NCBI GenBank assembly: GCA_945861715.1
Contig: CAMAVK010000002.1
Location: 260,440-324,439 of the forward strand
DNA length: 64,000 nt
Origin: Candidatus Woesearchaeota archaeon
GTDB taxonomy: Archaea; Nanobdellota; Nanobdellia; Woesearchaeales; GW2011-AR9
Reading direction: 5' to 3'
Positions within the stretch are counted from its first letter, which is position 1. Each line of letters begins with the position of its first letter. The notes beneath the pieces are model-generated. The model was not told the DNA's origin, did no database searches, and worked only from the letters and a program-made list of their open reading frames with translations. Positions 23,001 through 62,621 of this stretch are shown here, piece by piece. The position numbers were made by a program, and so were the translations under genes.

Positions 23001-25379
23001 AAATTGTATGAGAAAGTGTTACCGTCATCTCTTCCACGCGGAAAATCATATACTTATGTTGTTTTAGAAGATGGAACGATGGTGTTTGGTGAAGTGGAAA
23101 ATGGGTTGGAGTTTGGGGTCAAGCATTTCCATTTAGCAAATGGCAGAAAGGTAAAGGCAGCGGGTGAATTACAAATCGCTGCTGATGGCTCATATGAAGC
23201 AAATTTACTTTCGGGTACATTTTCGAAACCACTGGTTGATTTTTATGGCATTCCTGAGCGCGATTTAGAAGCACGTGTACTTTCTGTATTTGAGTCTGAC
23301 GCGCGGATGGGACAAGGAACGATTGTGAAAAAAGATTTGCTGCCTTCACGTGCACCATCGCTTGAGGAGTTTAAATCTGTTTGTTCATCTTCTGTATTTG
23401 AGTTGAATCGAGGTGTATGTGGTGGGGTGATGCCTCAAACACCATTAATTACAAAGATGGAGATATCCGTGCCGATTGATGGAGCTGTGCAGGTGGATTT
23501 GTTTGATTCTCTTTCAATACGTGCTCGTGCTGCCGGTAATGCAGAGCTAGCAGACGAGTATTTACGAATGAAGATAATTGCGCAAGATAAAATGTCCGAA
23601 GGATTCTTTGCTCGGACCAAGAGGAAGTTGTTTGGTGGTGAAGATGTACCTACAACTCTTGTTATTGATGATCCTGCTTTGTTTAAGACTGCTCAGGACT
23701 CTGTTAGTAAGCGAGGTATTACGTGGGTTACTAATGAGCCTCCACGAATAATGCAAAAGAAAGGAGATATAGCAGTTGGGTTTAAGGATTCAAGAGGAGT
23801 GGTTGAGATATTTGTGCCTGCTCATTTAGACTGGGCAAAAGTACGTGCTGACATAAATGCTTTGTTAAAAGAAAATCCAACGATTTCCAGGGAGGAGTTT
23901 GCTTCGAAAGTTCGTGCGATGGGATGTACTACTCCTGGATTACCAGTTGGAGGGAAGGCATATGTTGGGAAAGCAGATGAGTCTTGTGCGATCATTGGGG
24001 TTACATCTACTGATTCAGTTACGAAAGTAGTAGATTCTGCCAATGGTGCTTCTGAACAGGGAATTATGAGAATTGGTGTAGATCGAATTGGTGTAGATCG
24101 AATTGGAATTAATCCTGAGGTGGTCGATTTGAACACCAAACAATTAATTGAACGTCCTCCTGAGGTTGGTGTTTCTTCTACTATTAAAGTTAATGGGGCG
24201 GGTCTGGTAACTCCTTCTGGTACACATGAGGTTGAAGTAGTTGCGGGGGCGGATGGAAAGATTATTTCTATTAGTTCTGCTGGTTCTGTTGAGAGAAATG
24301 GTGTTAATGCGGTTACGGTTCATTTGCCTAATTCTGCATCGGATTCAGATCGTATTTTGGCGTTTACTGCGGTTGCGGCTATTGTTGGTGGTGGTGTTGT
24401 GTTGTCTTCGGATGAGATGGTTGATGAGATTCGTGAGCAGGTTCCGTGTGTGGGTGATATTTCGCAAGGGTGTGAGGTACTTGATATTGATGTGATAGAA
24501 CCTGATACCTCTTCTTCTTCTATGCTTGGAGTTAATGAGGAGATTGTGAGTATTCCTGTGAAAGTTTCTACTGGTACTCCTAATTTAAGACAACCGGTGA
24601 GCTTTTCTGTTTCTGGTAGCAAAGTTGCAAACACATTGAGTTCTATTACTAGTTCAGTTGCTGCAAAAAGTAATTTTGCTGGTAAATCTTTTGTGACTCA
24701 GTTGAGTGGTAATGAGAAGCGTGATGTTGAGTTTTATGTTCCGATGGGAGTCGATTTTGCGAAACCAGTTAATATTGTGTATTTGTTCCATGGTCTTGGT
24801 GATGTTGAGCGAACTGCAAAAGTAACGCTTCCGAATGGGATTTCGGCTGTTGAGTCTTCGGCTAATACTATTTTAGTATATCCAGTTAGTGCGGGTAAAC
24901 GAGGTACGGGTGGAGGAGACGGTGAGTGGATGAGTGGTAAGGGTGGACCGAATTCCATTTCGGCTTTACACACAGATACATTGAATGTTCTTCGCGAAAT
25001 GAGTCCAGTTCCATTTACAGAAGGGAAGGTGAATATTGTGTGTCATAGTGCTGGTGGTCAAGCATGTCGTAATATGGTTAGTAGTGGTGGTTTAAAAAGT
25101 ATTGATTCAGTTAGTGGCAAGTCTACTGCTGATATTCCAGTTCATTACTATATGGCTGATTCATGCTATGGGAATTGGTGTGGTGCGACTGTTGAGGGTT
25201 CTCGTTCCATTGATACTGTTGCAGTTCATTATAATTCGGTGGGGGTTACTGGAACAAAGAATGGTGGGGACGCGGTTAGTTCGGATGGTAAACGAGTTTT
25301 TGTTGAAGGTACGAATGAGGGTCATTTAGATTTTATTTTGGATACTTCTGAAGTTATCCTTGCGCAGAGTGAGAGTTAG
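11052..25379 (+). CDS. Giant 4775-aa exported multidomain protein with C-terminal alpha/beta-hydrolase
   Basis: This is one unbroken frame of 14.3 kb. A signal peptide or anchor occupies about residues 8-26. A helical N-domain and beta-rich repeats (about 40-700) follow, then long coiled-coil/TPR-like helices (about 730-1620). Three VA(L/M)RG(T/A/V)P modules lie near 2563, 2752 and 2893. About four SH3-like beta modules lie at 3395-3720. Two copies of a domain containing EFGVKH(L/F)HLANGR and AGEL lie near 3812 and 4019. The C-terminal domain (about 4540-4775) has FHGLGD, the nucleophile box CHSAGGQ (Ser4666), a candidate Asp4703 and GHLDF (His4758), as in esterase/depolymerase-type alpha/beta-hydrolases. 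A hydrophobic segment lies at about 4436-4452. The start overlaps the upstream stop (ATGA). Polymorphic-toxin-like or adhesin function is inferred; the substrate is unknown. Confidence 0.8.
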   Translation: MKLRGGGYGIILVLLILFSFAFVSFGDVGTGAVDNPNANAGSDSFGNEVFNTPTNQWTAQDVFKAFSDPNIDRSKLFQNLVQRPDLIKENADALVQFMDDDPGMYIDPNFRQVADTVFQDSTQGTKQLAKRANMAKKAFSQSVKRQTNKNVNVEKTEVQSYDPVKEQVVAANKKVSLTQFKQDDTVEYSEQVVTIKEATGNEISIGGTGEASIDKVETTVEGAPSEYEVHEGKSCADTELSDEERSLGCSQGSMHTFQFEQRVGGIGSGSGDSVDVDLSPGAIKVKGKVRGSTTLADGTDISYNSRSGSVTVESSGDVKADDATIRVVRKEGESERMLHLDGRFETKGNDVLLESYDGKESKVSIVEEGSEKAFSVSSQGGKVAFYDNSLPTDSVFGRKSGGVDSFSDSELTGRVYRQEYAGSTIIATRGIAESHVSHVDSMGIPFGTSLDLPSVTGKGSEFKSDVRVEAGRVEYDISGRGVVEDSSKVIETKQKGVHISQARSSTLDVLKTECSGCGVGDSLLTVSTKTLASETEIGFIPAIGGDRGITAGVVGGSVTVDYVMGSDSKIHPQVDFDDIAQAQENNVITPTIVCYGGDTCGGVIDGQIVYETSQNGVLQAAAVTTNPVQGLGREYLVVEDDTTEKAYTLFEDFIQRGGVLDSPVSDPQVIGLVAKISGIDLNEYQGNENYKLHLQKSISLSSVQVPGLQNSLIDNGIVVDAQGACLSVECSVIVAELDTSSDQYRDLVALRASSARVRLEMIAAEMALREANGKDTSDLKQVYDHEEALTLSDQIESRKLGIERLQQYAYTPEEEIVLSEAEEIGTLQKKAAQDRAIAQAEISDYEARYQKMEKSARLSAELRMGANWAKISEDERKLATLRVLSDDNSWREGVENPEDLRNMIHFAKNRYNHANEQLGKLQIRRDALALQTQDELLKAEMLRISGDAAGATKVYQKLQSDLEADEGLEISLGGVTKLDAVSKQKFAAAMGLSMVEAGYLDQAAQVVEGLDVTIPEVRNLKLKVRDVEIDSDYVTELKLSASRDRMDAVDNANTLEGQIAMGHWKEAEAMANKEGLSVGEIIVREGWAGAQRLSFTLLADWIGENENERAHNGKLANAAQMEGWTSEWEGCRKNIDCNIRETSLYKEYAPYRCKLDKVDCFEGKAQEVAIKSKQQTSFQTADDLKQLSNTLNYGSGVNAKKEDREKALAIYKKTLDEGAGDYIARVGLTGVEVASVALAPMFGEKFIAQGVEEIPFAIKNWVGAGKVGLEDIAATRRLMKAEKAVRETERLIDVAADSSIRARQLENAVNARVELSRAEIAFDQLKEVRRVSERAEVDAAVEHALRSAERVNFCEGGVCRTLKDDIRQKTQGLVKDPAVLRKQATEAETAGRVDLAEGLRRKAEFYEVEKVNARALEAQAKAIAEASKAIRVAQGLSEKPSLRERVVSVFSVPSPDSQVVTVVKQSDEVRSKAQDMLGLATDVESIDSSLATKLREEASQLAIQAVRIEQKAGVTPTDLSRNMDSITAQSTLARSINLNEAAIANLEQFSSDMRTKLQSSGSVKEVTREVSDNLVKQGFNSLGDVDAEVALLRSHSAELGVELERINLNVDKNIEVQSASSLATSDALSSRAVGSFSDCPLRVVSAGVALSGTAISVGMADALPVPCNDPPVSVILRPRNLMSAVAIEGNSAAVLVPRLPEEKFPIVRPRGAERVSGERTNVVAFKQPIDKVDNGITPRVEGLAPEGFDSSVADSLDSRLDNIDGPPIRSSDSFPDEVTGSDFSLVEPITHKEVLAARDRNFRPLQLSAEGGSIEQSTAHFVLRDNQLVPITSEAELAGLKDGQLLFSALLDYDGHVFGYSPAIIRDGTLVRGPEAASAISSGSGVVENKIVLQRFSELNSEVSSPMTDTESVLAGVAPWKDEFAIQPTLGLADLDAARVRVFDPIGAQVDVLGAAGDKAAFANAYTPINTRLRLIDSDIQKTAEEIARLKEGGNVDVARVLALENKVRELKAQKMSDINALYELDFKGMVKQGIIPEGVATELDKLRVTAARDVIDDLLLHDPVVVNKIVNSQKFRELKLLNPKMSDDALLVRFAKDNIEIKKIGSDGLPSDADINLIGPDSVLTDVFPTLRDRFRSIVKTEGPQLELLPLSKNGLDPTKVASNRLDGASLLNPEVMPNAREWLYRLNGQKAEISSEDALSQLLYHMTGFEKTEDLRTKSKYYVRAMSEKFRVNAELDALRNTLTSQAFDRAAKNGVIGVPPEVADYSIDLAVAEVARAKNIIGEDEFTTFKKAHQIYKGDGAAALEGLNKEAFVTQMSSDMNRFIDSPDMLSTWRSLNAPLDTNLESIVSDARRALSDGSDTGSRAFVARYDQHTRDYLISKFEQAGVTPDGARRLADHSFEELLEAESDMDLFLLGNDLGAVDGDRIMAVLADANEDFKALNFRVQKIKYEKASGKSLDELVTAVPTPVRDTVEIPAVKFPVRGVVDGGAVSTAVRNEQIVVDLKARSKDLGIEVSIGSQGEVVVRVAPGSQGIRPEVRSALDELSLNGENVQVSGDVGPVAMRGTPVADLSSGGRVVPVSGVSVTPGVRDVRNLEFSRFGGRNTIDGEKAQEVLNFVHDIPASQQAKLHVSRDKKLLIIEVNNPGTWESKLSVGARQTLREAGVTEIQFKSPGDGVLREMKSATGAKSLDKNVPLQGLFGQFGLSGTEKRSLIDSSLAPGLEAKVNGFDSVAQVSGDGSKARIGVVDPVALRGAPIAESGSPRVLPVVGEKTIVKSVTPQSRVDHNIQSFSADDFWTVHSDTVNSVTGSRYVQVDVDSHGQLLPVGQDGFKVTLRNDLKTGQFVVVSDASSRGLSAEARKVLDDTVVGLTESGVGKVEVPVVVPVAVPPVALRGVPVNSPGRVTQPGIPSTVRNVDALGDSSSQIRTIVLTGTSERNLEDAISTKLYQRQVQSQSNQNFVGSYVKVKVDELGNVVDNGKYSVSLIDDIVPGQFRVAVDDGMPQSVRGRLDESLAMVNRNRVAVSEVDAVVTVKKSPPPLPENAKIHEVTDIDVVSSESLLPAVASPEQLAVTAPPAASYDDLSGVQGFDLPIVSQSEAENIEKYVRFMSSRGITIHVGEVDGVPTIEYWVPNTIASEDGLQSALGVVRKNHDDQFAHKFNAVVLEQKGNGVPEDTQILNGVELVKDGSSAVEALGLKTVSDRAVLESALAQARDGIVTGVKGADAAAEKFAAKLSQLNRYEAYQQKGAFGKWWERRWSGEPVKPSVVAEGELEKILLGDAKVAVASVSEIGVDAGKIDHSVVAGVKGDFSSEGGLVTPEGLIDANTLNIPVSSERHVADVVPGIDPLPSSIVVQAPVAASISPSCSVGFVGNAVGRQCGINMKLPDGLDVESGSLCTFNLVDGTSPTFIYSAVTDEGIIIRDANGKLFPIDSNSILSVDVLDMEKARTPAYGEKVHVVHSDGTVSEGYFLDEDAAGITINIIPPKQGGALSMQRIANKDVSTVRFGNELKTGPHEVGANVGPSESIAGGESISSGTSGQSQVDVTLEPEATANIAVDGSVGGSLHVGGKDFSSTVVMDFSANPDLAPAKVLGGMNKDTPIRFTVDGRVIEGKFGGVSGDKLLYTNERGQAAVARVSRIDAGSVTELSIYESNLGFAKNSPVSVSTPEGVISGRYLSEDDIFVYIKGSDNQLHSVPKVDIASGRYSISGSVEAETVVLDLSLSTNRAKVAGLPSRTVDSAVSSSVIFTMPSGTQGRFPVVFRMEDRDFAVANNLIRENPNLGSLERGASYNYVVLDDGTVVVGKVSDDLEFGVKHLHLANGRPVTVAGELKVGMDGKLTYNLNSNTFMNPLIREGGSTEAGARKAFEAIVKDQIGVIPSFETSTLLPHGPPSTIQLDELCAGHFLNSNVGLCGLLGIGQSKAKKVSSIDDLVTNNRDIFVVQSQGHIQAADMTKGVRLTDGSVQQIVYTLADREFARSRGKLYEKVLPSSLPRGKSYTYVVLEDGTMVFGEVENGLEFGVKHFHLANGRKVKAAGELQIAADGSYEANLLSGTFSKPLVDFYGIPERDLEARVLSVFESDARMGQGTIVKKDLLPSRAPSLEEFKSVCSSSVFELNRGVCGGVMPQTPLITKMEISVPIDGAVQVDLFDSLSIRARAAGNAELADEYLRMKIIAQDKMSEGFFARTKRKLFGGEDVPTTLVIDDPALFKTAQDSVSKRGITWVTNEPPRIMQKKGDIAVGFKDSRGVVEIFVPAHLDWAKVRADINALLKENPTISREEFASKVRAMGCTTPGLPVGGKAYVGKADESCAIIGVTSTDSVTKVVDSANGASEQGIMRIGVDRIGVDRIGINPEVVDLNTKQLIERPPEVGVSSTIKVNGAGLVTPSGTHEVEVVAGADGKIISISSAGSVERNGVNAVTVHLPNSASDSDRILAFTAVAAIVGGGVVLSSDEMVDEIREQVPCVGDISQGCEVLDIDVIEPDTSSSSMLGVNEEIVSIPVKVSTGTPNLRQPVSFSVSGSKVANTLSSITSSVAAKSNFAGKSFVTQLSGNEKRDVEFYVPMGVDFAKPVNIVYLFHGLGDVERTAKVTLPNGISAVESSANTILVYPVSAGKRGTGGGDGEWMSGKGGPNSISALHTDTLNVLREMSPVPFTEGKVNIVCHSAGGQACRNMVSSGGLKSIDSVSGKSTADIPVHYYMADSCYGNWCGATVEGSRSIDTVAVHYNSVGVTGTKNGGDAVSSDGKRVFVEGTNEGHLDFILDTSEVILAQSES
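11062..11071 (+). repeat. 10-G homopolymer in codons 4-7 of the giant gene
   Basis: Ten consecutive G residues encode the end of Arg4 and three glycines just before the signal helix. In this AT-rich sequence such a tract is unusual. A change of length by slippage would shift the frame of the whole 4775-codon gene, as in bacterial contingency loci. An assembly or base-call error is also possible. Confidence 0.8.
24069..24108 (+). repeat. 15-bp direct repeats inside the giant gene
   Basis: The unit GAATTGGTGTAGATC occurs in tandem twice, followed by a partial third copy. It encodes RIGVDRIGVDRIGI. The repeat is in frame (5 codons), so copy-number change would not disrupt translation. Confidence 0.7.
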
Positions 25380-30350: not shown

Positions 30351-30743
30351 CTATCTGTATGATTTTTGTCTTGAAGCACGAGCTTTGGAATCGTTTGGTT
30401 TACGTGATTCTTTGCGTCGTACGTCGGGGATTAATAGTAGCCGATCGTATTCAGTGAAGACTTTTTTAAGTGTCGGGTCGTGTGCTACAAGTGCTCGCGC
30501 AATTGCTACTCGACTTGCATCAGTTTGACCATTTACTCCACCGCCTTGTACGAGGATGTCAATATCGACTTTTTGTGCTGTAGCGCCAGCCAAAATCATT
30601 GGTTCACTGATTCGAAGTTGAGCTGATTTACTTTGGAAATCGCGTAAGTAAATTTTATTGATGGTTACTTTTCCTTTTCCAGCACTTAGCGTTGCTCTAG
30701 CTACTGCTTGCTTCCTGGTTCCTTGGGTATTGATAGTTTTCAT
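30351..30743 (-). CDS. rps9: Ribosomal protein uS9
   Basis: This 130-aa small-subunit protein uS9 carries TQGTRKQAVARATL near the N-terminus, GGGVNGQTDASRVAIARAL in the middle, and the conserved basic tail ending KSYR that reaches the P-site tRNA. I start it at MKTINTQG (30743), whose ATG overlaps the rpl13 stop (ATGA) and has AGGAGG upstream. A longer frame beginning at 30767 would extend into rpl13 without homology. Confidence 0.95.
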   Translation of the reverse strand: MKTINTQGTRKQAVARATLSAGKGKVTINKIYLRDFQSKSAQLRISEPMILAGATAQKVDIDILVQGGGVNGQTDASRVAIARALVAHDPTLKKVFTEYDRLLLIPDVRRKESRKPNDSKARASRQKSYR

Positions 30744-31165
30744 TGTTTGCCTCCTACTGCTCGGCATAATTCTCCAATAGTGATGTAGTTCAAGTTTGGT
30801 AATTTATGCATACTCGCATCTTTTACAACTATTGGTGTTTGCTTTGGCACGTCATCTGGGGCTGAGCTTCGATGGCAAATGACTCGTTTGAAGGCAATTT
30901 TTCCTCGGTTGATATGCCATGGGAGCATTCCTCGAACTGCACGTCTTACGACTCGCTCGGGCATTCGTGAATGATGTTGACTTTTCAGAGGATATCCTAC
31001 GCGTTCTCTTTTGTCTTGTTGTCGTTCAATAGTGTTTTCTCGTCGTCCGCTAATCATTACTTTTTCGCAGTTGATGATATGTACTTCTTCTCCCATAAGA
31101 GCGTCTTTTGCAACTAGTGTTGCAAGTCGACCCATAATAATTCCTTCACCGTTGTAGATTTTCAT
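30740..31165 (-). CDS. rpl13: Ribosomal protein uL13
   Basis: This 141-aa large-subunit protein uL13 shows IIMGRLATLVAKDAL, HIINCEKVMISGRR and RMPERVVRRAVRGMLPW, all diagnostic of archaeal L13. The start MKIYNGEG (31165) is preceded by GAGGT. The longer frame starting at 31255 overlaps rpl18e and is not used. It is coupled to rps9 by a 4-nt overlap. Confidence 0.95.
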   Translation of the reverse strand: MKIYNGEGIIMGRLATLVAKDALMGEEVHIINCEKVMISGRRENTIERQQDKRERVGYPLKSQHHSRMPERVVRRAVRGMLPWHINRGKIAFKRVICHRSSAPDDVPKQTPIVVKDASMHKLPNLNYITIGELCRAVGGKQ

Positions 31166-31175
31166 TGGTAGGACC

Positions 31176-31535
31176 TCATCCCAAAATCCGCACTTTTTTG
31201 CCTTGCGGATTTTGTTGTAGTAATTCAGTGATGCTGAGCACTTTTCCTTTTGCATCAGTAATTTTCTTTTTTGCTTCTGATGAAAAGGTAAATGCTGCTA
31301 CATCTACTTTTTTTGTAATGTCTCCTGTTGCTAATACTTTTCCAGGGATGATTACTGTTTCTCCTTCGAGTGCGTATAAGTTTATTTTATACACATTTAC
31401 AGTTCTGCGTGCTCGTGTAGGTTTTTGTAAATCATCACTGATTCGTCGCCAAAGATCGCTCTTTTTAGCATGTGGTTCAATTTCAGCGATGAGTTGCTGT
31501 AGTTGGTAGTTTGTTGGACCGGTTCGCTTTGTCAT
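31176..31535 (-). CDS. rpl18e: Ribosomal protein eL18 (L18e)
   Basis: This 119-aa archaeal/eukaryotic large-subunit protein L18e is recognised by RRTVNVYKINLYA, TVIIPGKVLATGD and the C-terminal GKKVRILG. Length is normal. It starts one base after the rpo3 stop codon and precedes rpl13 closely, as in most archaeal operons. Confidence 0.95.
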   Translation of the reverse strand: MTKRTGPTNYQLQQLIAEIEPHAKKSDLWRRISDDLQKPTRARRTVNVYKINLYALEGETVIIPGKVLATGDITKKVDVAAFTFSSEAKKKITDAKGKVLSITELLQQNPQGKKVRILG

Positions 31536-31536
31536 T

Positions 31537-32310
31537 TTAGATCATACTCTCCATTTCTTCAATTTTTTCAATTAGGATATCAGCGGATTTAGCTAGAATT
31601 TCTTTGCAGGGAAGTGCGCCCCAACTTTCAAGGTGAAATACTATTTTGTCCGTAAATTCTAAGGTTATTCCGCTATCAAGGTCCGCGTATAGTTCAAGGA
31701 GTTGGCTATTTTTTACTTTGTCTTCATTTACTTCTAGTTTCTTTCCTTTTAATGTGAAGACACCGTCAGTACATTTCTCCATGACTTTTTCTGGATCTTC
31801 CACTTTGCCAACTTTTAGTACAGGTTCTGCGTAGTAGTATGCCCAGCCAGGAGCCCATTTGATATGATCTTTGCCAATTCCTAGTACTGCGGTCATGGTG
31901 ACATCAAGTTTTTGTTTTGCTAGAAGCTTAACTACTGGCATTCTGGGGAACACAAATGTACATTTTGGATCGGTGCTTACTGCTTCTTCAGCGAATACAT
32001 ACCCTTTTTTGTTTGCTTTAAGGGTGATTTGAAGTTGGCATTGAGCGCATCCGGCACCAGCACATTTGCATTTTCCAGGTAAGTTATAACTTTTCAGATC
32101 TGTTTTTATGGGGATGAGGCCAAGGCGTAATGCGACCATTTCGTCATAGAGGGCCGACGAATTGTCTTTAAACTCTAGGTCTTCTACGGCTAAGGTTGGA
32201 ACATCCTCCAAAATGATACGTCGTATTGTATTTGCAAAAACTTCTTCTGTTGCGATGAGTAGCGAGAGTTTTCCCGCCTTTTTATCTTCGGAGAGTTTTT
32301 CTATTTTCAT
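31537..32310 (-). CDS. rpo3: RNA polymerase subunit Rpo3 (RpoD)
   Basis: This 257-aa protein is the archaeal alpha-like subunit Rpo3 (RPB3/AC40 homologue). It dimerises with Rpo11 to nucleate polymerase assembly. ANTIRRIILEDVPTLAVEDL is the conserved alpha dimerisation motif. The insert domain carries CKCAGAGCAQC (about residues 79-89), four cysteines able to bind zinc or an Fe-S cluster, as in several archaeal Rpo3 proteins. The C-terminal helix (WGALPCKEILAKSADI) completes the fold. It is fourth in the ribosomal operon. Confidence 0.95.
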   Translation of the reverse strand: MKIEKLSEDKKAGKLSLLIATEEVFANTIRRIILEDVPTLAVEDLEFKDNSSALYDEMVALRLGLIPIKTDLKSYNLPGKCKCAGAGCAQCQLQITLKANKKGYVFAEEAVSTDPKCTFVFPRMPVVKLLAKQKLDVTMTAVLGIGKDHIKWAPGWAYYYAEPVLKVGKVEDPEKVMEKCTDGVFTLKGKKLEVNEDKVKNSQLLELYADLDSGITLEFTDKIVFHLESWGALPCKEILAKSADILIEKIEEMESMI

Positions 32311-32349
32311 GGTTTGACCTGTTGTGAAGCGTTGTTGTTATTGAGAGAC

Positions 32350-32793
32350 TTATACACGTCGTCCTCGTCTTCCGCCTTTCATGCGACAGCCGTTATGTGG
32401 CTCTGGTGTCACTTCTTCGATTTTTCCAATTCGCATGCCAATTCTTGCGAGAGCTTTGATTGCAGCTTGTGCACCTGGACCTGGATTTTTTGATCCATTG
32501 TGGCCACCTTGTGCTCTTACTCGAATGTAGAGGCCGTTAATTCCTTTTTCGCGGCAAATTTCTGCTACTTTTTTAGCTGCTCCCATGGCTGCAGCGGGTG
32601 AACTTTCAAGTCGGTCTTGTTTTACAATTTGTCCACCACTTGATCTTGCGAGTGTTTCAGTTCCGGTAATATCGGTTACGGTTATAATTGTGTTATTATA
32701 AGAGCTGTAGATATGAGCAACTCCCCAACGCATTTTGGTTGCAGTTATTGGTGCGTGTCCTCTTTCTTCTACTTGCATTTTGTCGAGTCTCAT
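32350..32793 (-). CDS. rps11: Ribosomal protein uS11
   Basis: This 147-aa protein is uS11 of the small-subunit platform. [19 protein letters not shown], the [11 protein letters not shown] block and the basic C-terminus [12 protein letters not shown] are diagnostic. The start codon overlaps the rps4 stop (ATGA), giving translational coupling. MQVEERGH a few residues in could be an alternative start. Confidence 0.95.
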
Positions 32794-33407
32794 TTTCCAC
32801 CTCTCTCTTTGCCTCGAGATCCTTGTTTAGGTCGGTCTGAGTATGTTGATGGTCTTGGTTTTACGGCAGCAGCTTCTGCGTGAACTTCTTTTACGATGTT
32901 TACTCGCTCTGGGTGTTCAACATTTCCAAGAGATGAATTTGGTTTGAAGGCAATGACAGATTCTTCAGATACGAGTACCATATATGACGGAGCAGTTACT
33001 TGTGCTCCGGAAATGGTAATGTGTCGATGTGTTATGAATTGTCTTGCCTGATCGATACTTCGTGCAAAACCAAGTCGTACAACTTTTGTTTGCAATCTGC
33101 GTTCCATGACATCTTTTAATTCTAAATTTAAGATGTTATCCAATTTTGAGCCAGCAGGAAGAAAGCCTAATCGTTCTAATTTTTCAAGAACTTGCTTTTT
33201 TTCAACTTCTGCTTGTACGGTCTTTGTTGCGATAAGTTTTTTTGCTATATCCTTGTATTTCTTCAGGAAAGTGTTGGCAAGATAAATTTCTCGCTTGTTT
33301 TTTAGACCGTACTCTTTCATGATGATTTTTTCAGCATCAATAGTTGGCTTATGCCACGGTTTTAATGGAGTATTGTACTTATTTTTTAATTTTCGAGGGT
33401 CACCCAT
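32790..33407 (-). CDS. rps4: Ribosomal protein uS4
   Basis: This 205-aa protein is uS4, a primary 16S rRNA-binding protein. [19 protein letters not shown] is the archaeal N-terminus. [20 protein letters not shown] and [14 protein letters not shown] are the S4 RNA-binding domain. The C-terminal tail (after about residue 170) is Lys/Arg/Ser-rich. It lies between rps13 and rps11 in conserved order. Confidence 0.95.
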
Positions 33408-33421
33408 GATTATTCACCTGT

Positions 33422-33961
33422 TTACTTCTTATCCCCTTTTTTGGGTTCAGATTTCTTCTTTACGCCAACAACTTTACCTTTGTTACGTCGGAAGTTTGAT
33501 CTTGTTCGTTGACCACGCACGGGTTGGCCATGAATATGTCTAATCCCTCGAAGAGTTTTGATTTTCTTGAGTCTTTTTAGATCATTTTCTTGTGTGAAAT
33601 TGAGAGTGTTCGTTACGAGATGTTTGTCTTCACCAGTCTCAAAATCTTTTCGTCTATTTGCATACCAAACAGGAATAGAATTTTTAAGTGGATTTAGAAG
33701 AATGGTGTTAATTGCTTCAATCTCTTTATCAGCGAGGTTCCCCGCTTTGGTATCGCGACTAATGTGTGCGATGTTACAAATGGCGTCTGCAAAATTTATG
33801 CCCACGCCTTTTATGTCAGTGAGCGCCCAACGGATTTGTTTATTTCCGGGGATATCGACGTTTACAACACGAACAATGTGTCGAAACTGTTTGTTTTCAA
33901 CTTGTTTTTCTACCATTTTTGTCAATTTTTTAACGAATGTGTATTCTCCAAGAATAAGCAT
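33422..33961 (-). CDS. rps13: Ribosomal protein uS13
   Basis: This is uS13 of the small-subunit head: WALTDIKGVGINFADAI (HhH-like), LKRLKKIKTLRGIRH and GQPVRGQRTRSNFR are diagnostic. It is first in the operon. The frame starts at 33961, but the family usually begins near MVEKQVENKQFRHIVRV, so ATG 33916 is a strong alternative; no clear ribosome site decides between them. A TATA box at about 34055-34064 implies an untranslated leader of about 75 nt (or about 120 nt with the shorter start). That leader contains a 14-bp palindromic AT stretch and could hold an autoregulatory site. Confidence 0.92.
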   Translation of the reverse strand: MLILGEYTFVKKLTKMVEKQVENKQFRHIVRVVNVDIPGNKQIRWALTDIKGVGINFADAICNIAHISRDTKAGNLADKEIEAINTILLNPLKNSIPVWYANRRKDFETGEDKHLVTNTLNFTQENDLKRLKKIKTLRGIRHIHGQPVRGQRTRSNFRRNKGKVVGVKKKSEPKKGDKK

Positions 33962-34175: not shown

Positions 34176-35045
34176 TTAGGTTGTTCTTTTCAGTATTATC
34201 GCTGTGGCGTTGTCATCAGTGCAATCCTCGGCGATGTTTATTATCAGTCTTGTTGCTTCAGAAGATGTAATGTTACGAATAAGGTCGCCAAGAGTAGCAC
34301 GTTTATTTCGAAATCCTTCATAAGCTCCATCTGTTAGGAGGGCAAGTGTATCACCTTTATCTATGATTGCTGGAGTTGGTATTTCGTATATTTTTTCGTC
34401 GAGATCATGTCGCATGAGATATCCAATGGATTTGGTTAATCGGGATGTTGCAGGTATAAGGTTTCCTTTTAGGTGAATAAATTCGATTTCTTCGGGGTCA
34501 TCCCAAAAGTCAATGTTTTCTGGTTTTTCTAGTGCTTGGATTCCTGCCTCTTCTTGCATTATTTGCCGTTGGTAATTGTGATCGCGGGTGAGGAGATGTA
34601 CGTCGTTTGTTTTTTTGGGAATAAAATATAATCGGGTATCTCCAATATAACCCATATGCAGTTTTTCTTCACTGTCAATTAGACATACAAGGGCAGTGGT
34701 TGCACCGTGTTCAATATGTTTTATTCGTGCATATGACCTTAAATTAAAACGTTCAATAGCTGAGTTCTTGCTCGTTGTTTGGTTTTCAATTATTTCTCGG
34801 AAAAGATCGATAGTTAATTGAGAAGATTGATCCCCGTTCTGATGCAATCCGTCACAGAGAATTGCGCCGGCGATGTATCTAGGGGGTTTGGTTAATGTAC
34901 ATGTTTGTTGATTGTGGTTTGTTAAAGTTGATTGAAAATGTAGTTTTTCATTGCGGTAGGTGAACGCAAGTGCGCTATCCTGATTGCTTTTTCTTTGATT
35001 TTGAATACTTGCAAGACTGACTTCGTATTGAGAATTTGTAGTCAT
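34176..35045 (-). CDS. PP2C-family protein phosphatase
   Basis: This 289-aa protein carries the PP2C/PPM motifs in order: NQDSALAF, ILCDGLHQNGDQ (DG metal-binding motif, with LHQ instead of the usual MGG), GATTALVC, GYIGDTRLYF, LLTRDHN, LLTDGAYEGF and DDNAT. The Asp residues that bind two Mn/Mg ions are retained, so Ser/Thr phosphatase activity is likely. No transmembrane segment is seen, so it should be cytosolic. No kinase gene lies next to it. It sits near a sigma-factor-like gene, which recalls bacterial partner-switching circuits, but no anti-sigma gene is visible. Confidence 0.85.
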   Translation of the reverse strand: MTTNSQYEVSLASIQNQRKSNQDSALAFTYRNEKLHFQSTLTNHNQQTCTLTKPPRYIAGAILCDGLHQNGDQSSQLTIDLFREIIENQTTSKNSAIERFNLRSYARIKHIEHGATTALVCLIDSEEKLHMGYIGDTRLYFIPKKTNDVHLLTRDHNYQRQIMQEEAGIQALEKPENIDFWDDPEEIEFIHLKGNLIPATSRLTKSIGYLMRHDLDEKIYEIPTPAIIDKGDTLALLTDGAYEGFRNKRATLGDLIRNITSSEATRLIINIAEDCTDDNATAIILKRTT

Positions 35046-35241: not shown

Positions 35242-36060
35242 ATGAAATCTTTGCGGTATGTTGATGTTCATTGTCATGTTAATTCAAAGTTGTTTAAAAA
35301 TGATTTTGAAGAAACATTGATGCGTGCGCAAGCTGTGGGTGTAAAGTCTATTGTGTTATCTGGGGTTAATCCAGAAGCAAATCGTGAAGTTTTGAAGTTG
35401 TGTTCTCAGTATCCTATGTTGAAGGCGTCTCTTGGTATTTATCCTATTGATGCTATTGGTTTGCCATGTGATGGGACGGGTCTTCCTCGACATGATGGAC
35501 CAATTGATTTGGATTCCGAATTTGCGTTTATTCGTGCAAATCTAGATCATGTTGTGTCTGTAGGTGAAGTGGGGATGGATTTTCATTGGTCTAAGAAGGA
35601 GGAGGAACATGTTTTACAAGAGGATAATTTTCGACGAATTATTCGCTTTGCTATATCAATTCAAAAACCTCTTGTGATTCATTCTCGTGCAGCGGAGAAA
35701 GAATGTATTCGTGTTTTAAGTGAGGAAATTAAGAATAAAGAAATATTTGTGGTTAATCATTGTTTTTCTGGTGGTAAAAAGGTGATTATTGAAGCAGCGG
35801 GGCTAGGTCATTTTTTTTCTATTCCTGCAAATATTGTGAAAAGTGAGCAATTTCAAATGCTTGTTGGTATGGTTGATTTAAATCAATTGCTTACAGAGAC
35901 TGATTCGCCATGGTTGGGACCTGTACCTGGCGAGCGTAATGAACCTGCCAATGTTGTTGAAAGTGTTCGCATGATTGCGCAGATAAAGGGAATTTCAATT
36001 GAGGCGTGTGCACAAGCTATTTGGAACAATTACATTCGAGTGTTTGGTAAGGATGCGTAG
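35242..36060 (+). CDS. tatD: TatD-family metal-dependent hydrolase/DNase
   Basis: This 272-aa TIM-barrel protein has the TatD metal-binding motifs: VDVHCHVN (HxH), VSVGEVGMDFHW (Glu), VIHSRAAEKE (His), VNHCFSGG (His) and LLTETDSPWLGPVPG (Asp). The motif TDSPWL...RNEPANV is typical of TatD enzymes, which are 3'-5' exonucleases or deacylases (D-Tyr-tRNA deacylase activity is reported for some). Length is normal. It is followed by the sigma-like gene on the same strand with a 118-bp gap. Confidence 0.9.
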   Translation: MKSLRYVDVHCHVNSKLFKNDFEETLMRAQAVGVKSIVLSGVNPEANREVLKLCSQYPMLKASLGIYPIDAIGLPCDGTGLPRHDGPIDLDSEFAFIRANLDHVVSVGEVGMDFHWSKKEEEHVLQEDNFRRIIRFAISIQKPLVIHSRAAEKECIRVLSEEIKNKEIFVVNHCFSGGKKVIIEAAGLGHFFSIPANIVKSEQFQMLVGMVDLNQLLTETDSPWLGPVPGERNEPANVVESVRMIAQIKGISIEACAQAIWNNYIRVFGKDA

Positions 36061-36178
36061 TTGTGTAGTTTAGTTGCAATCGTTTTTTGTTGTATGTTTT
36101 GCAAATTATTATTGGAACTAATTATTCATTTTTGTTGGTTGTAATCGGGTTGATTGATAGGTGGGGGATTATGCTTTT

Positions 36179-36895
36179 ATGGCTGATAATTATCAAGAAT
36201 TAATTCGGGAGCATGTTCGTTTACCATATTCTGTTGCATGGACTCTTGCACGAAAATATCCTGCTTCTGTTGATGTTGAGGACATGCGAAGTGCAGGCAT
36301 TATTGGTTTGATTGAAGCGGCAATGAAATATGATACGGGTCGGGGTATTGATTTCCGACCGTTTGCTATATTTCGAATTCGGGGTTCTATTCTCGATGAA
36401 TTGCGATCACTTAGTTTTATTCCTCGTACTGTTCTTGATCGTAGGAAATCAGCTAAGGTGATGAGAGAAAAATTAGGTCGCGATGCTGTGCTTTCAGGTA
36501 GGTCAATTTATGATGTTACAGATTTTGATGTTGCAGAGGCTCTTGGAGTTGAAATTGGAAAGGGAAATTATCTGGATTATTTTGCAGAAGCAACGATTTT
36601 TAGTTTAGACCACGGTGTGGATTTTGAGGAGGGAACTTTTGAATCTAATCTAGAGGATGCAAGCCAGATTTATTTTGGGACACTTGAAGGAACTCGTAGG
36701 CCTATTGAGGATTACTTGTATGTATCATATGTTTTTGATTGTATTGATCACCTTCCAAGGCGGGATCGACAATGTTTCTATGATTATTATTTGCGCGACC
36801 TTGAGATGAAAGATATTGGTACTTCATTAGGGATTTCTGAGAGTCGGGTGAGTCAGATTCTATCTCGAAGTTTAACAGGGATTTTACAGAAGTGA
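36179..36895 (+). CDS. Bacterial-type sigma factor, sigma-28/FliA-like
   Basis: This 238-aa protein has sigma-70 family organisation. Region 2 (about residues 8-85) contains VEDMRSAGIIGLIEAAMKYD, RGIDFRPFAIFRIRGSILDE and LRSLSFIPRTV, the FliA/WhiG signature with core-binding and -10 recognition helices. A region-3-like helix has FDVAEALGVE. Region 4 (about 190-238) has LPRRDRQCF, LEMKDIGTSLGISESRVSQILSR, a complete -35-type helix-turn-helix. I chose ATG 36179 because GGTGGGGG lies about 10 nt upstream; GTG 36161 is an alternative. Archaea use TBP/TFB, so a sigma factor is unexpected. It may be a repurposed DNA-binding regulator or a recent transfer; the region shows no obvious assembly break. 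Confidence 0.85.
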   Translation: MADNYQELIREHVRLPYSVAWTLARKYPASVDVEDMRSAGIIGLIEAAMKYDTGRGIDFRPFAIFRIRGSILDELRSLSFIPRTVLDRRKSAKVMREKLGRDAVLSGRSIYDVTDFDVAEALGVEIGKGNYLDYFAEATIFSLDHGVDFEEGTFESNLEDASQIYFGTLEGTRRPIEDYLYVSYVFDCIDHLPRRDRQCFYDYYLRDLEMKDIGTSLGISESRVSQILSRSLTGILQK

Positions 36896-37156: not shown

Positions 37157-38356
37157 TTATTTTTGTTTTAATCTCCTTTTTTTTGTTAAATCTGTATGTG
37201 TAAATTTTGCAATAAAGTAGTTTTCATCATACAGTAAATGTGCAATTACCTCTTTTAGGGAGTAGGCATCTTTGTAGTCAATAATTGCTTTAATCTGGTC
37301 CGAGGTGTATGTTTCTTGCTTAAAGAAATTGGTCACAAATGTATTCTCTTCCTTTTTTCGGTTTTCAAATATTTCCCATTCGTGGTGAAGTCTAGCATCC
37401 CATTTTCGAACAATTCCTTGATACAGTCTTGTGAGGTGAGGGTCTTTTTTATTTACTTCAGTAACTGCCCATAAGCCGCTCTCTTCTAGCGCGTATTTTT
37501 TGAAAGCAAGTTGTAACATGGGTACAATTTGCATGATGCCTTTGGATTGGGTAAGATGTAGTAGGGTTAAAAATGCGACATATGTTGATTTAGAACATTT
37601 GTTGAAGAGTCGTTCAATATGTTCGATTTCTTGTGTATCTTCTTTGATTACTTTTTTTGCTCTTTTTAGTTTTCTTTTGTTTTCTTGGAGATATTTTTTG
37701 GTATTATTTAAGATAAACAAATTTTTGAAACATTGGAACAATCTTGCTTCTTCGTTGTATCCTTCTATACACAGAATATTGTGCGTTCGATCTGCTAGTT
37801 TTACTTGGATGGCAATTCTTTTGCTTTGTTCGTCTTTGGAATCAAAAATTCCTGAAATTGAGGCGTAGTAATAGTCGCGTTTGTGCCTGGTAAGAAGTCG
37901 GATTGAGCTGATTATGAGGTTCGTTTCTTTTGTATTTAGCTGATACTTCTTGGTTAGGTATTGTATTTCTGTTTTTAATTTTTGGATGCATTGCTCCTCA
38001 TATTCATCTAGAAGTATAATCCCTTCTTCTTTTTCTTCAATTCCACTTTCTTTTTTATACAAATCTACTTGTTCTTCAATGTAATCATGTAACAAACCAA
38101 CACAGATGATTATGGGGCTTTGTATACCTGATTTTTTAAGAAAATTGATAATGTTTATTGGGTGAATAAATGGGTGTTCCCCGTTTTTTCTTTTTGGTAA
38201 TGATTGATAGAGATGTTCTGTTTTATGGTACATTTCTTTCATCAATTCAAAATAGGGATTGTCCTTAGAAATGATGTTTTCAGGGTTGAGAATTTTTTTT
38301 GTAGGTTGCCATAATTCTAAGATTTCGTATGCTTCTTGGGTACTTTTTTTGATCAT
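37157..38356 (-). CDS. HD-domain protein resembling the RelA/SpoT hydrolase domain
   Basis: This 399-aa protein has a SpoT/MESH1-like HD domain. RKNGEHPFIHPINI corresponds to the (R)KSG-PYI-HP motif, VGLLHDYIEEQ supplies the HD pair, and QVKLADRTHNIL matches the KLADR.HN motif. This domain hydrolyses (p)ppGpp in bacteria. The synthetase and TGS/ACT domains are absent; the C-terminal half (about 200-399) is helical and lysine-rich with no recognised domain. It may hydrolyse ppGpp or another nucleotide. A TATA-like TTTAAAA about 25-30 bp upstream supports a leaderless ATG at 38356. Confidence 0.75.
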   Translation of the reverse strand: MIKKSTQEAYEILELWQPTKKILNPENIISKDNPYFELMKEMYHKTEHLYQSLPKRKNGEHPFIHPINIINFLKKSGIQSPIIICVGLLHDYIEEQVDLYKKESGIEEKEEGIILLDEYEEQCIQKLKTEIQYLTKKYQLNTKETNLIISSIRLLTRHKRDYYYASISGIFDSKDEQSKRIAIQVKLADRTHNILCIEGYNEEARLFQCFKNLFILNNTKKYLQENKRKLKRAKKVIKEDTQEIEHIERLFNKCSKSTYVAFLTLLHLTQSKGIMQIVPMLQLAFKKYALEESGLWAVTEVNKKDPHLTRLYQGIVRKWDARLHHEWEIFENRKKEENTFVTNFFKQETYTSDQIKAIIDYKDAYSLKEVIAHLLYDENYFIAKFTHTDLTKKRRLKQK

Positions 38357-39633: not shown

Positions 39634-39745
39634 ATAAGATGGTTTGGTTCTGTTGGTATTTAAAAAGTTTTGTATGTGGTATGCTTCTGATTTATTGTTT
39701 ATTTGGTTTGGGAGTTTTTTTAAAGAGGTTTTTCTTTTTGATGGT

Positions 39746-40273
39746 ATGGATGATTTGTGGTTGAATTGGATGAAAGATGCTCTTTTAAGTGAAGGAGTAA
39801 TTGTTGAAAAGGATAGTCTTCAGATTAAGTTAGATTCCTCATCGTTTTTTAGGATTGATGAGAAATTGTCATATTCTGCGGCAGCGGTGTATTTGGGCAA
39901 GTCAGTGAGTGCAACTCGAGGTTATGTTCATCGATATGGACTTCATTCTAAAGGTGGTGTTAGTGCAGCTCATGTTCTTAAACTAACACGATTACCAAAA
40001 GTTCAGTCTACTATTGCCTCGTTTGATTTGAGTGAGATAGTGACTCTTTTTGGTGTTCCACGGGAGCATCAGAAGGATTTATGGCAAAATGGTTTGATGA
40101 GATATGATACTTGTTGGTATAGCGCAGTTGATGTTGCGAGGCATCGTGGTTCTCAGTTGAAGAATTATTTTGAGGTGTTTGATGCAACCTTAGATTTTAT
40201 GGTTCGTGATCATAGTAGATGTTCCATTTCAATTGAAGATCTTGATGCCTTGGCTCGTATTTTAGGTACTTGA
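39746..40273 (+). CDS. Protein with two HTH-like modules, function unknown
   Basis: I do not recognise a named family. From MDDLWLNWMKD (39746) the product is about 175 aa. It contains two similar modules of about 65 residues: SYSAAAVYLGKSVSATRGYV followed by HRYGLHSKGG, and LSEIVTLFGVPREHQKDLW followed by WYSAVDVARHR. Each looks like a winged/excisionase-type helix-turn-helix. The open frame extends back to 39644, but that part overlaps the divergent tRNA-Thr promoter and is Phe/Trp-rich without homology, so it is probably not translated. A DNA-binding role is inferred. Confidence 0.5.
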   Translation: MDDLWLNWMKDALLSEGVIVEKDSLQIKLDSSSFFRIDEKLSYSAAAVYLGKSVSATRGYVHRYGLHSKGGVSAAHVLKLTRLPKVQSTIASFDLSEIVTLFGVPREHQKDLWQNGLMRYDTCWYSAVDVARHRGSQLKNYFEVFDATLDFMVRDHSRCSISIEDLDALARILGT

Positions 40274-46981: not shown

Positions 46982-47374
46982 TTATAGTTTGTCTTCAGCT
47001 TCTTCTTTTATAGTTTTGAAAGCTTGACCCAAGTCAATCATGTATTTGCCTTCGTCAATTTTTATGATCAGTGGATCCTTTTTGAAGAGGTGAACTAAAT
47101 CAAGTTCATATTTCCCTGGTCCTACAACTCTTATGGATTCGAATTCGAGGATAACTGGTCTGTCTGCATCAACATCCATATGAAGGACTTCTTTTACATC
47201 GTGCTCCATCTGAATTTTTTCATCATCGGAAAGGTTTGAGGCTACTTCTTTTGCTTCTTTTATGTGTTCACGTTTGACGAAGAAGAATAATCTACACCCA
47301 CAGGGACAGCCTTTTAATATTTCTTCTGAACCATCAGGATAGAATTTGTTACAGCGAACACATTGGTGGGGCAT
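46982..47374 (-). CDS. OapC/ArvC-like zinc-ribbon protein (DUF2072)
   Basis: This 130-aa archaeal protein has a zinc ribbon at the N-terminus (HQCVRCNKFYP, then GCPCGCRLFFFV) and a C-terminal domain with DRPVILEFESIRVVGPGKYELDL. It matches the DUF2072 (OapC/ArvC) family. The gene order Era-like GTPase, DUF2073, DUF2072 is conserved across archaea, and the three probably act together; biochemical function is not established. It lies 6 bp after DUF2073 with its own short ribosome site. Confidence 0.85.
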   Translation of the reverse strand: MPHQCVRCNKFYPDGSEEILKGCPCGCRLFFFVKREHIKEAKEVASNLSDDEKIQMEHDVKEVLHMDVDADRPVILEFESIRVVGPGKYELDLVHLFKKDPLIIKIDEGKYMIDLGQAFKTIKEEAEDKL

Positions 47375-47380
47375 TTTGTT

Positions 47381-47791
47381 TTACCTTTTTCTTTGTTGAT
47401 TTTGTTGAGTTATTTGAAGAAGTGATGCTTCTTTTGTTAGAAGTTCAATTTTGTCAGGATTTTTTTCAATCTTTTTCACAATTGATGCTGGTCCTATAAT
47501 AGTGAGGCCTTGGCGATTTCCAAGCAATATACTTGTTACGACATCTTTAACTTTTGTTAATGCGTCTTTACTACCTTTTTCAGGATAGATGACACTTAAC
47601 TCGATGCCTTTGAAGCGGGGACCAATTTCACCCATGGTCATGGCGATGAGTTCGCATTCTTCTTCTTTTTTTAGCCGACCTTCCATTATTACGATGCGGT
47701 TGTCTTTTACAATGTTAAGAAGTTTGTTTATGCGTTTAGCAGAGGGTAGCTCTACAATGTCTTGATATGGAACAAACTGAAATGTGACCAT
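47381..47791 (-). CDS. OapB/ArvB-like protein (DUF2073)
   Basis: This 136-aa protein contains DNRIVIMEGRLKKEEECELIA and FKGIELSVIYPE, matching the DUF2073 (OapB/ArvB) family, a KOW/SH3-like small protein found in archaea beside an Era-like GTPase. A bacterial relative, OapB, binds OLE RNA, so RNA binding is plausible but inferred. The C-terminal tail is Gln-rich. Confidence 0.85.
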   Translation of the reverse strand: MVTFQFVPYQDIVELPSAKRINKLLNIVKDNRIVIMEGRLKKEEECELIAMTMGEIGPRFKGIELSVIYPEKGSKDALTKVKDVVTSILLGNRQGLTIIGPASIVKKIEKNPDKIELLTKEASLLQITQQNQQRKR

Positions 47792-60907: not shown

Positions 60908-61144
60908 ATGGCACTTGATATACCCAAACATACATTAGTTCCAGTGCATTCTAAAGTAAGTGACAATGAGAAAGAGAAAGTACTTTCTGCTCTACAGGCA
61001 ACAACAACTCAACTTCCTAAGATCTACAAGGATGATGCTGCGCTTGTAAAACTTGCGGTTAAAGCAGGTGATATTATTAAAATTGAAAGGAAGAGCCCGA
61101 CCGCGGGTGTTAGCTTCTACTACAGGGTGGTTATCGATGGTTAA
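60908..61144 (+). CDS. rpo5: RNA polymerase subunit Rpo5 (RpoH)
   Basis: This 78-aa protein is Rpo5/RpoH, the homologue of the RPB5 C-terminal domain. HTLVPVHSKVSDNEKE and LPKIYKDDAALVKLAVKAGDIIKI match the family, and the C-terminus SFYYRVVIDG is typical. The ATG at 60908 is the only start consistent with homologues; the open frame upstream (from 60866) lies in the hairpin leader. The last codons overlap the start of rpo2''. Confidence 0.95.
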   Translation: MALDIPKHTLVPVHSKVSDNEKEKVLSALQATTTQLPKIYKDDAALVKLAVKAGDIIKIERKSPTAGVSFYYRVVIDG

Positions 61145-62621
61145 TACAGAAAGATCCGTTCTAGTTCGAAAATATTTTGAAGAGAAAAAATTCGTTGATA
61201 GCTCTATTGCTTCGTTTAATAACCTTATTGATAAAGGGATGCAAGAAGTTATTGAAGAGAATAAAGAGGCAGAACCGGCTATTATTCCGCATAATATTGA
61301 GAAATTCAAGATTAGGTTTGGACGAATTACTGTTGGTAAACCTGAAATTACTGAGGCTGATGGATCAAAGCGACCAATTTATCCAATGGAAGCACGGTTG
61401 CGAAAGATTTCTTATCATGCTCCTATATTTTTAGAAGTGAGTTCTTATATTAATGATATACAACGAGAAAATTTTATTGCAGAAATTGGTAAGATGCCAA
61501 TTATGTTAAAGAGTAAGTATTGTCATTTATCTGGTTTATCTCGAGAAGATCTCATTAAACGCGGAGAAGATCCAACGGACCCTGGTGGATATTTTATTAT
61601 CAACGGAACAGAAAGGGTTATTATTAACGTGGAAGATTTGGCACCTAATAATTTCATGGTTGAAAGTGATGGTCCAGGACAAGCTACTGGTCGTTATTTT
61701 GCGTCAAGAGGATCATATAAGATTCCACATTCAATTGAGAAGAAGAAGGATGGAATGTATTACTTGTCTTTTACTCGAGCTAAACAGATGCCACTTATTG
61801 TGGTGTTGAAAGCGCTTGGTATGATCAAAGATGAAGATATTATGAAGTCTATTTCAACTGAGAAAACATATGATGAAATAATTCTTAATTTGTTTGAATT
61901 CGTTGAGATTAAAAATCAAGAAGATGCTATTGATTTTGTTTCGAAGCGAGTGGGAATTGCTCAAGCACGAGAAATTCGAATTGAGAGAACGCGTGAGCTC
62001 ATTGATAAGTTTTTGTTGCCTAACATTGGTATGGATGCATCGTTTAGAGCTACTAAAGCACGGACACTATGTAAAATGTTAAAAAAATACATTGACGTTG
62101 CAAGTGGTGCTCGTGAAGGAGACGATAAAGATCATTATATGAATAAACGTATTCGTATGAGTGGAGACTTGTTGCTTGATTTGTTTAGGGTTAACTTTAA
62201 AGTTTTAGTAGGAGATATTTTGTATAATTTCCAACGAATTATCAAGCGTGGTAAGTTACCTTCGATTAAAGTTATTATTCGAGATAAATTGCTTACGTCT
62301 CGGTTGTATAGTGCAATGGCAACAGGTGAGTGGGTTGGTGGACGTCAAGGAGTATCCCAACGTATGAGTAGAACTAACTTTTTGGATATGGTATCACACC
62401 TTCAAAGAGTTGCAAGTCCGTTGTCTACAACGCAAGAAAATTTAGATGCTCGTGCATTACATTGTACTCATCTTGGTCGTTTGTGTCCACTTGAAACTCC
62501 GGAAGGTACGAACATTGGTCTTCGTAAGAATATGGCAATGTTATGTAGTTTGTCTCAAGCGTCTGATGAAAATGAAGTTCTGGCTAAATTAAAAACTGCT
62601 GGTTTAAGAGAGGTAGCATAA
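61137..62621 (+). CDS. rpo2'': RNA polymerase subunit Rpo2'' (RpoB2, N-terminal half)
   Basis: This 494-aa protein is the N-terminal half of the split second-largest subunit. Markers are RKISYHAPIFLEVS, PIMLKSKYCHLSG, DPGGYFIINGTERVI and, near the end, ALHCTHLGRLCPLETPEG, which continues into Rpo2' in unsplit polymerases. It starts at MVNTERS (61137), overlapping the rpo5 stop by 8 nt. Split Rpo2 is found in several Euryarchaeota and in DPANN groups; the break after the LCPLETPEG region is the usual one. Confidence 0.95.
   Translation: MVNTERSVLVRKYFEEKKFVDSSIASFNNLIDKGMQEVIEENKEAEPAIIPHNIEKFKIRFGRITVGKPEITEADGSKRPIYPMEARLRKISYHAPIFLEVSSYINDIQRENFIAEIGKMPIMLKSKYCHLSGLSREDLIKRGEDPTDPGGYFIINGTERVIINVEDLAPNNFMVESDGPGQATGRYFASRGSYKIPHSIEKKKDGMYYLSFTRAKQMPLIVVLKALGMIKDEDIMKSISTEKTYDEIILNLFEFVEIKNQEDAIDFVSKRVGIAQAREIRIERTRELIDKFLLPNIGMDASFRATKARTLCKMLKKYIDVASGAREGDDKDHYMNKRIRMSGDLLLDLFRVNFKVLVGDILYNFQRIIKRGKLPSIKVIIRDKLLTSRLYSAMATGEWVGGRQGVSQRMSRTNFLDMVSHLQRVASPLSTTQENLDARALHCTHLGRLCPLETPEGTNIGLRKNMAMLCSLSQASDENEVLAKLKTAGLREVA

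Follow-up and report, generated by a model that had tools for sequence, protein, structure and literature searches.

The window, a 64,000-nt stretch of the genome of a Candidatus Woesearchaeota archaeon, carries a gene which, judged by its sequence and context, is an authentic σ70 gene of the FliA/WhiG type that arrived by lateral transfer and has become resident. With a probability of roughly 45% we favor the reading that its product, in a minor and gene-specific capacity, initiates or regulates transcription by the RNA polymerase of the archaeon itself. σ region 2 would rest on the clamp helices common to archaeal and bacterial polymerases, regions 2 and 4 would read promoter DNA, and a small set of genes would be served in parallel with the usual TBP/TFB system. 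Directly observed are the protein itself, its archaeal location, the presence of only one polymerase in the genome, the retained residues and the conserved chromosomal slots.

σ factors on the one hand and TFB with TBP on the other mark the line that textbooks draw between transcription initiation in bacteria and in archaea. Both are initiation factors that bring the polymerase to promoters; the σ architecture is unrelated to that of TFB, which the genome studied here retains together with TATA-type promoters. Bacterial-type σ factors in DPANN archaea were reported by Rinke et al. in 2013 (as cited in PMC6126073). In the passages cited here, Castelle et al. (2021; PMC8204110, fam00359) described σ70 as prevalent in Woesearchaeota, excluded mis-binning, found no anti-σ factor and called the mechanism unclear. 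The initial annotation was right about a real FliA/WhiG-like σ factor in a true archaeal genome, but because of these two reports its claim of novelty was overstated. The presence of σ genes in such archaea is already known, and the window gene, which likewise has σ70 domains in an archaeal genome and is not mis-binned, adds an intact example. New relative to the cited passages of PMC6126073 and PMC8204110 are the SigA, FliA and ECF classes of archaeal σ factors, their recurrence in conserved slots with class swapping and empty slots, a shared N-terminal domain, and the state of the polymerase clamp. A lineage with σ genes in a third of the sampled genomes, one archaeal polymerase and TFB offers a natural test of σ function on an archaeal polymerase. 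The slots, the exchange of classes and the inventory of retained and missing contacts make this a concrete biochemical question rather than a mere annotation curiosity.

The σ gene and its archaeal surroundings

The open reading frame is intact on the plus strand and extends from GTG 36161 or ATG 36179 to 36895, which corresponds to 244 or 238 amino acids (Table 1). Both σ domains passed the curated Pfam cut-offs, Sigma70_r2 (PF04542) with E = 2.1e-12 (47.1 bits versus 24) and Sigma70_r4 (PF04545) with E = 4.7e-13 (48.9 bits versus 24.1). Sequence matches in the PDB covered almost the full length and included FliA of P. aeruginosa (E = 2e-28), FliA of E. coli (E = 4e-25) and WhiG (E = 7e-21). 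An AlphaFold model built on a 50-sequence alignment showed regions 2 and 4 as helical, their pLDDT averaged by block being mostly 80-96, and a disordered segment at residues 137-174; the best solved Foldseek matches of this model were σ28/WhiG structures. The assignment to FliA/WhiG-type σ factors with regions 2 and 4, made in the initial annotation together with the motifs IRGSILDELR and ESRVSQI, is borne out by these results. The protein shares with the FliA/WhiG σ28 factors (group 3 of σ70) the succession of regions 2, 3 and 4 as well as the motifs IRG.(I/M)LDELR and ESRVSQI. It differs from them in that W and D of the DW.PR motif are replaced and the host polymerase is archaeal. The NCBIfam model FliA_WhiG (TIGR02479) was the best family, yet the score of 136.5 bits remained below the cut-off of 189.6; because of this, 'σ28-like' is the right term on sequence grounds and 'FliA ortholog' is not. 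In a phylogenetic tree the protein grouped with bacterial FliA, apart from SigA (split supported at 100/100), its exact place being unsure on a branch 3.1 long. The best phage and plasmid matches were almost full length and showed 31.7-36.8% identity. A viral origin was considered and rejected: peptide patterns of the protein itself had no match in viral contigs (exact patterns detect close relatives only), and phage records matched at only 25-36%.

Table 1. Coordinates of the σ gene, its parts and neighboring genes within the window.
Feature	Position	Strand	Evidence or remark
FliA/WhiG-like σ70 family protein, regions 2, 3, 4	36179..36895	+	Pfam, PDB, AF2/Foldseek
σ region 2 (core binding 2.1-2.2; DNA melting/-10 recognition 2.3-2.4), incl. 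IRGSILDELR	36200..36412	+	PF04542, aa 14-84 of 244-aa ORF; residue table versus 80 bacterial FliA
σ region 4 (-35 recognition HTH), incl. ESRVSQI	36740..36874	+	PF04545, aa 194-238 of 244-aa ORF; AF2 pLDDT about 81-96
Shine-Dalgarno-like GGTGGGG ahead of ATG 36179	36160..36166	+	Read from sequence
Archaeal S9, L13, L18e, Rpo3, uS11, uS4, uS13 cluster, defines slot A	30351..33961	-	ORFs, Pfam Rpo3; same order beside σ in G032/G033
PP2C-type phosphatase, neighbor	34176..35045	-	PF13672 E = 4e-6; Stp1 model E = 6e-14, below cut-off
TatD-family DNase, co-directional, about 118 nt upstream of σ ATG	35242..36060	+	PF01026 E = 1.6e-59
HD-domain protein, weak likeness to RelA/SpoT hydrolase end	37157..38356	-	HD_4 E = 0.011; PDB RelA/SpoT E = 0.006
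Archaeal Rpo2 (B'' part); B' from about 62617	61053..62621	+	Pfam, PDB, sequence

The contig to which the window belongs is 332 kb long and comes from a 98% complete genome of 1.30 Mb; the σ gene resembles the neighboring genes and the host in base composition (GC 0.393, GC3 0.247). The archaeal surroundings of the same composition that had been described earlier were thus confirmed, with the ribosomal/Rpo3 cluster, Rpo2 and Rpo1' on one contig, the latter just past the end of the window and 28 kb downstream of the σ gene. Rpo2 gave its best PDB match with archaeal RNA polymerase (E = 8e-129); bacterial β reached only about 1e-23. The TatD gene adjoins a σ gene in G054 too, and homologs of the HD protein flank slot A in G032 and G033 (HD_4 E = 4.8e-7 for the G033 homolog). 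One polymerase with the PF04997 domain was present per genome in the source organism and in 56 of 60 relatives. The source genome has one RNA polymerase, which is archaeal, and one TFB locus, and a search of this genome for a second or a bacterial polymerase found none; it therefore encodes no bacterial core enzyme.

A second σ factor is encoded on another contig (G000:C3:66219-68405; L032 16220-18406). It is a SigA-type protein of 728 amino acids whose long N-terminal part has no named domain. The initial annotation had missed this protein, as it had the conservation of the slots and the lack of docking residues in the clamp. The 728-aa protein matched MzaA, the σ70 protein of the MZA anti-phage system (NF041931), at E = 5e-69. 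Both are long, of the SigA type and extended by a large N-terminal portion, but the score of 233.9 bits lies far under the 800-bit cut-off of that family. No RsbW-type anti-σ kinase (HATPase_c_2) was found in the source genome, and partner switching with the neighboring PP2C phosphatase was rejected for this reason.

Distribution and chromosomal slots of archaeal σ genes

σ region 2 was present in 40 of 60 relatives and, across the phylum, in 127 of 371 genomes; the corresponding number for the own family was 25 of 30 among the genomes listed. In the initial annotation, absence from all sister genomes together with a long-read assembly break had been regarded as a sign of contamination; σ70 proteins are present in these genomes, and in conserved archaeal gene order. 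The archaeal σ factors sort into three classes, namely SigA, FliA and ECF. Close relatives of the window protein are rare: within the order, 12 of 288 genomes gave a sequence match, the source genome among them, and the best other protein showed 33% identity. FliA-type and SigA-type proteins were separated at 100/100 in the tree. The archaeal FliA-type branches were very long and not gathered in one clade, and the archaeal SigA of G055 nested with a sequence encoded by a Cloacimonadota genome (100/97). Because of this scatter and the position of the G055 protein, several transfers of σ genes are likely from the tree, although long branches can be misleading. A dN/dS ratio of about 0.32 was obtained for one same-genus SigA pair, the only usable one; one G382/G427 pair was identical and the other not orthologous.

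Two chromosomal locations were found repeatedly. In slot B, one or two σ genes are located directly upstream of and co-directional with the gene for IleRS in nine genera (G006, G008, G011, G013, G014, G016, G023, G033, G050), at a distance of mostly 24-94 nt (185 in G023). The far side is occupied in five of these nine genera by c2, whose product is a membrane protein that carries a winged-helix-like domain (DUF7343) at its C-terminus. The σ gene of this slot is FliA-type in G008 and SigA-type in the other genera; in the source genome, G010, G024, G029 and G034 the slot is empty, with c2 abutting IleRS. A 37-residue σ-like fragment upstream of IleRS in G009 (L278 1126-1236, E = 8e-4) is possibly a decayed σ gene. 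Slot A, next to the S13/Rpo3 operon, is shared by the window and two other genera. In the window, its FliA-type gene has TatD on one side and the HD gene on the other. In G033 the slot holds two SigA-type genes, flanked by uS13 and by a primase-Rpo11-HD-TatD stretch, and G032 has the G033 arrangement across a contig break. Since the slots hold differing classes or stand empty, σ genes appear to have been gained, lost and swapped between classes at fixed places. An intein-bearing primase-like gene (L041 7850-10666) adjoins the tandem σ genes of G033.

Many archaeal σ factors have gained extra N-terminal regions. A domain of about 150 amino acids is common to six of them, SigA-type as well as FliA-type (including L076, L077, L086, L042 and L036), and was found in no other protein among those compared. 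Its fold gave no significant PDB match, only insignificant MerR/wHTH-like ones (one model with a shallow alignment, pLDDT 72). Two unusual architectures were seen: (i) a 1550-aa protein (G012:C39, L037) with three σ modules (FliA-like, partial and SigA-like) and repeated wHTH/MerR-like stretches; (ii) a 1096-aa protein (G021:C33, L070) in which a σ module is fused to a helicase-like N-terminal part, where an assembly error is possible because of an unread base in the sequence.

Contact residues, polymerase and promoters

Nine archaeal FliA-like proteins were compared with 80 bacterial FliA sequences. In regions 2.2-2.4 and 4.2 the archaeal proteins retained almost every conserved position. In the DW.PR motif that follows LDELR, W and D are present in 94% and 96%, respectively, of bacterial FliA; the window protein has F and S. 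W was lost in all nine archaeal proteins, D kept in eight. The 41 archaeal SigA-type proteins retained (i) the core contacts D403 (90%), E407 (83%), Q406 (71%) and N409 (68%); (ii) Y430 (83%) and W434 (85%), with W434/Y430/F427 within 83-85%; (iii) the -35 residues R584/E585/R588/Q589 (about 80%). Region 3.0 and the 3.2 finger were poorly kept in this class, the extended -10 residues H455/E458 being down to about 40% and the finger to about half. Retention of the region 2.2 core contacts was about on a par with that of the DNA-contact residues. Systematic loss of the core-contact residues of region 2 in relatives, which the initial annotation had named as an argument against its reading, was not found.

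The clamp coiled coil of Rpo1' was almost invariant across 50 genomes, whether a σ gene was present or absent. An adaptation of the clamp in σ-bearing genomes was looked for and none was seen, in a comparison with only four σ-free genomes of the own family. In a gap-free alignment with checked numbering, residues R275, E295 and A302 of E. coli β' correspond to I, L and H in the archaeal clamp. Each of the single changes R275Q, E295K and A302D is reported to impair holoenzyme formation (PMC8321222). By sequence, nothing in the B' flap of the source organism corresponds to the flap-tip helix of bacteria, which holds region 4; archaea are said to lack this helix commonly (PMC8321222). Because the clamp is invariant and R275, E295, A302 and the flap tip are absent, the polymerase is not visibly adapted to σ.

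Promoter motifs were examined by position in about 128 kb of the source genome, upstream of 74 genes with free upstream DNA. TTWAWA peaked at -30 to -26 of the ATG, with 20 occurrences versus about two to three per bin, which is the position expected of leaderless archaeal promoters. Matches to TTGACA/TATAAT and to FliA motifs were not more frequent on the sense than on the antisense strand upstream of these 74 genes, and exact consensus promoters numbered one in the genome and one in the control. The search for -35/-10-like motifs of a regulon, suggested in the initial annotation, therefore yielded no sense-strand excess. As the bacterial and FliA motifs were not in excess, the σ regulon, if any, is apparently small or uses another motif.

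Possible functions of the σ factor

The three functions proposed earlier, i.e., action on the archaeal polymerase, DNA binding and action on the polymerase of a bacterial partner, were the right ones to weigh. Action on the polymerase of the archaeon itself is the function we favor, because region 2.2 and the DNA-reading parts are conserved to about the same degree. Further support comes from core- and DNA-facing residues kept together in fast-evolving proteins, from the lack of an encoded bacterial core enzyme and from the dN/dS ratio of the one SigA pair. The addition of the same N-terminal domain to both classes and the host-like composition argue in the same direction, as do slots that adjoin translation and RNA polymerase subunit genes (the order c2-σ-IleRS, and the S13 operon, where Rpo3 lies to one side of the σ genes and, in G033, Rpo11 to the opposite side). 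This role is weakened by the clamp without the three β' residues, the missing flap tip, the lack of excess of σ motifs, the poor retention of regions 3.0 and 3.2, and the lack of an RsbW-type anti-σ kinase in the genome. Tentatively, the σ factors may form part of a hybrid system: they would direct an unmodified archaeal polymerase to dedicated promoters beside TBP/TFB, docking without R275/E295/A302 and the flap tip, and their classes would be exchanged at fixed slots.

A polymerase-independent regulator, in which regions 2 and 4 would bind DNA only and the inherited core-binding face would be idle, is somewhat unlikely; it ranks not far behind since the clamp residues are missing and the promoter signal is absent. 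The flap without its bacterial σ contact, the relaxed regions 3.0 and 3.2, and the N-terminal regions added to many archaeal σ factors, the one modeled giving insignificant MerR/wHTH-like matches, are also consistent with a DNA-binding protein. However, retention of the region 2.2 core contacts at about the level of the DNA contacts would be needless for an idle face, and free σ is usually a poor DNA binder.

We consider it improbable that the protein is aimed at the RNA polymerase of a bacterial partner. Bacterial-type core and promoter contacts are both kept while the own clamp is unadapted, and the life style of DPANN archaea is usually symbiotic, as stated in the cited passage of PMC8204110. 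Against this stand the housekeeping slots with IleRS and ribosomal genes and the lack of a delivery route among secretion signals judged by reading the sequence. Moreover, we know of no bacterial partner of the source organism. Little probability is likewise given to a transient, nearly neutral passenger, i.e., repeated entry, fast evolution and decay of σ genes. The patchy distribution, the very long branches, the several likely transfers, the rarity of close relatives, the empty slots and the possible remnant in G009 would fit such a history, but the reading frames are intact, functional residues are kept, dN/dS was about 0.32 in one pair, most genomes of the own family keep σ, and the same slots recur. 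A contaminating or chimerically assembled bacterial contig, which the bacterial FliA proteins as best matches outside the own genome (among those listed) might suggest, was rejected as highly improbable because the 332-kb contig has archaeal genes on either side and host-like GC3, σ genes occur in the same archaeal neighborhood in other genera and in over a hundred genomes of the phylum, and mis-binning of DPANN σ factors was ruled out independently (PMC8204110, passage cited).

The window contains further genes of note. A few genes downstream of the σ gene, positions 39644-40273 encode a 209-aa protein with the look of HTH units and no Pfam match. A 4775-aa open reading frame (11052-25379) presumably codes for a giant surface protein, and another large protein, with 1966 amino acids, is β-helix/NosD-like (418-6318, minus strand). 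The genes for the origin-associated proteins OapB and OapC lie side by side (46982-47791), which hints at a nearby replication origin.
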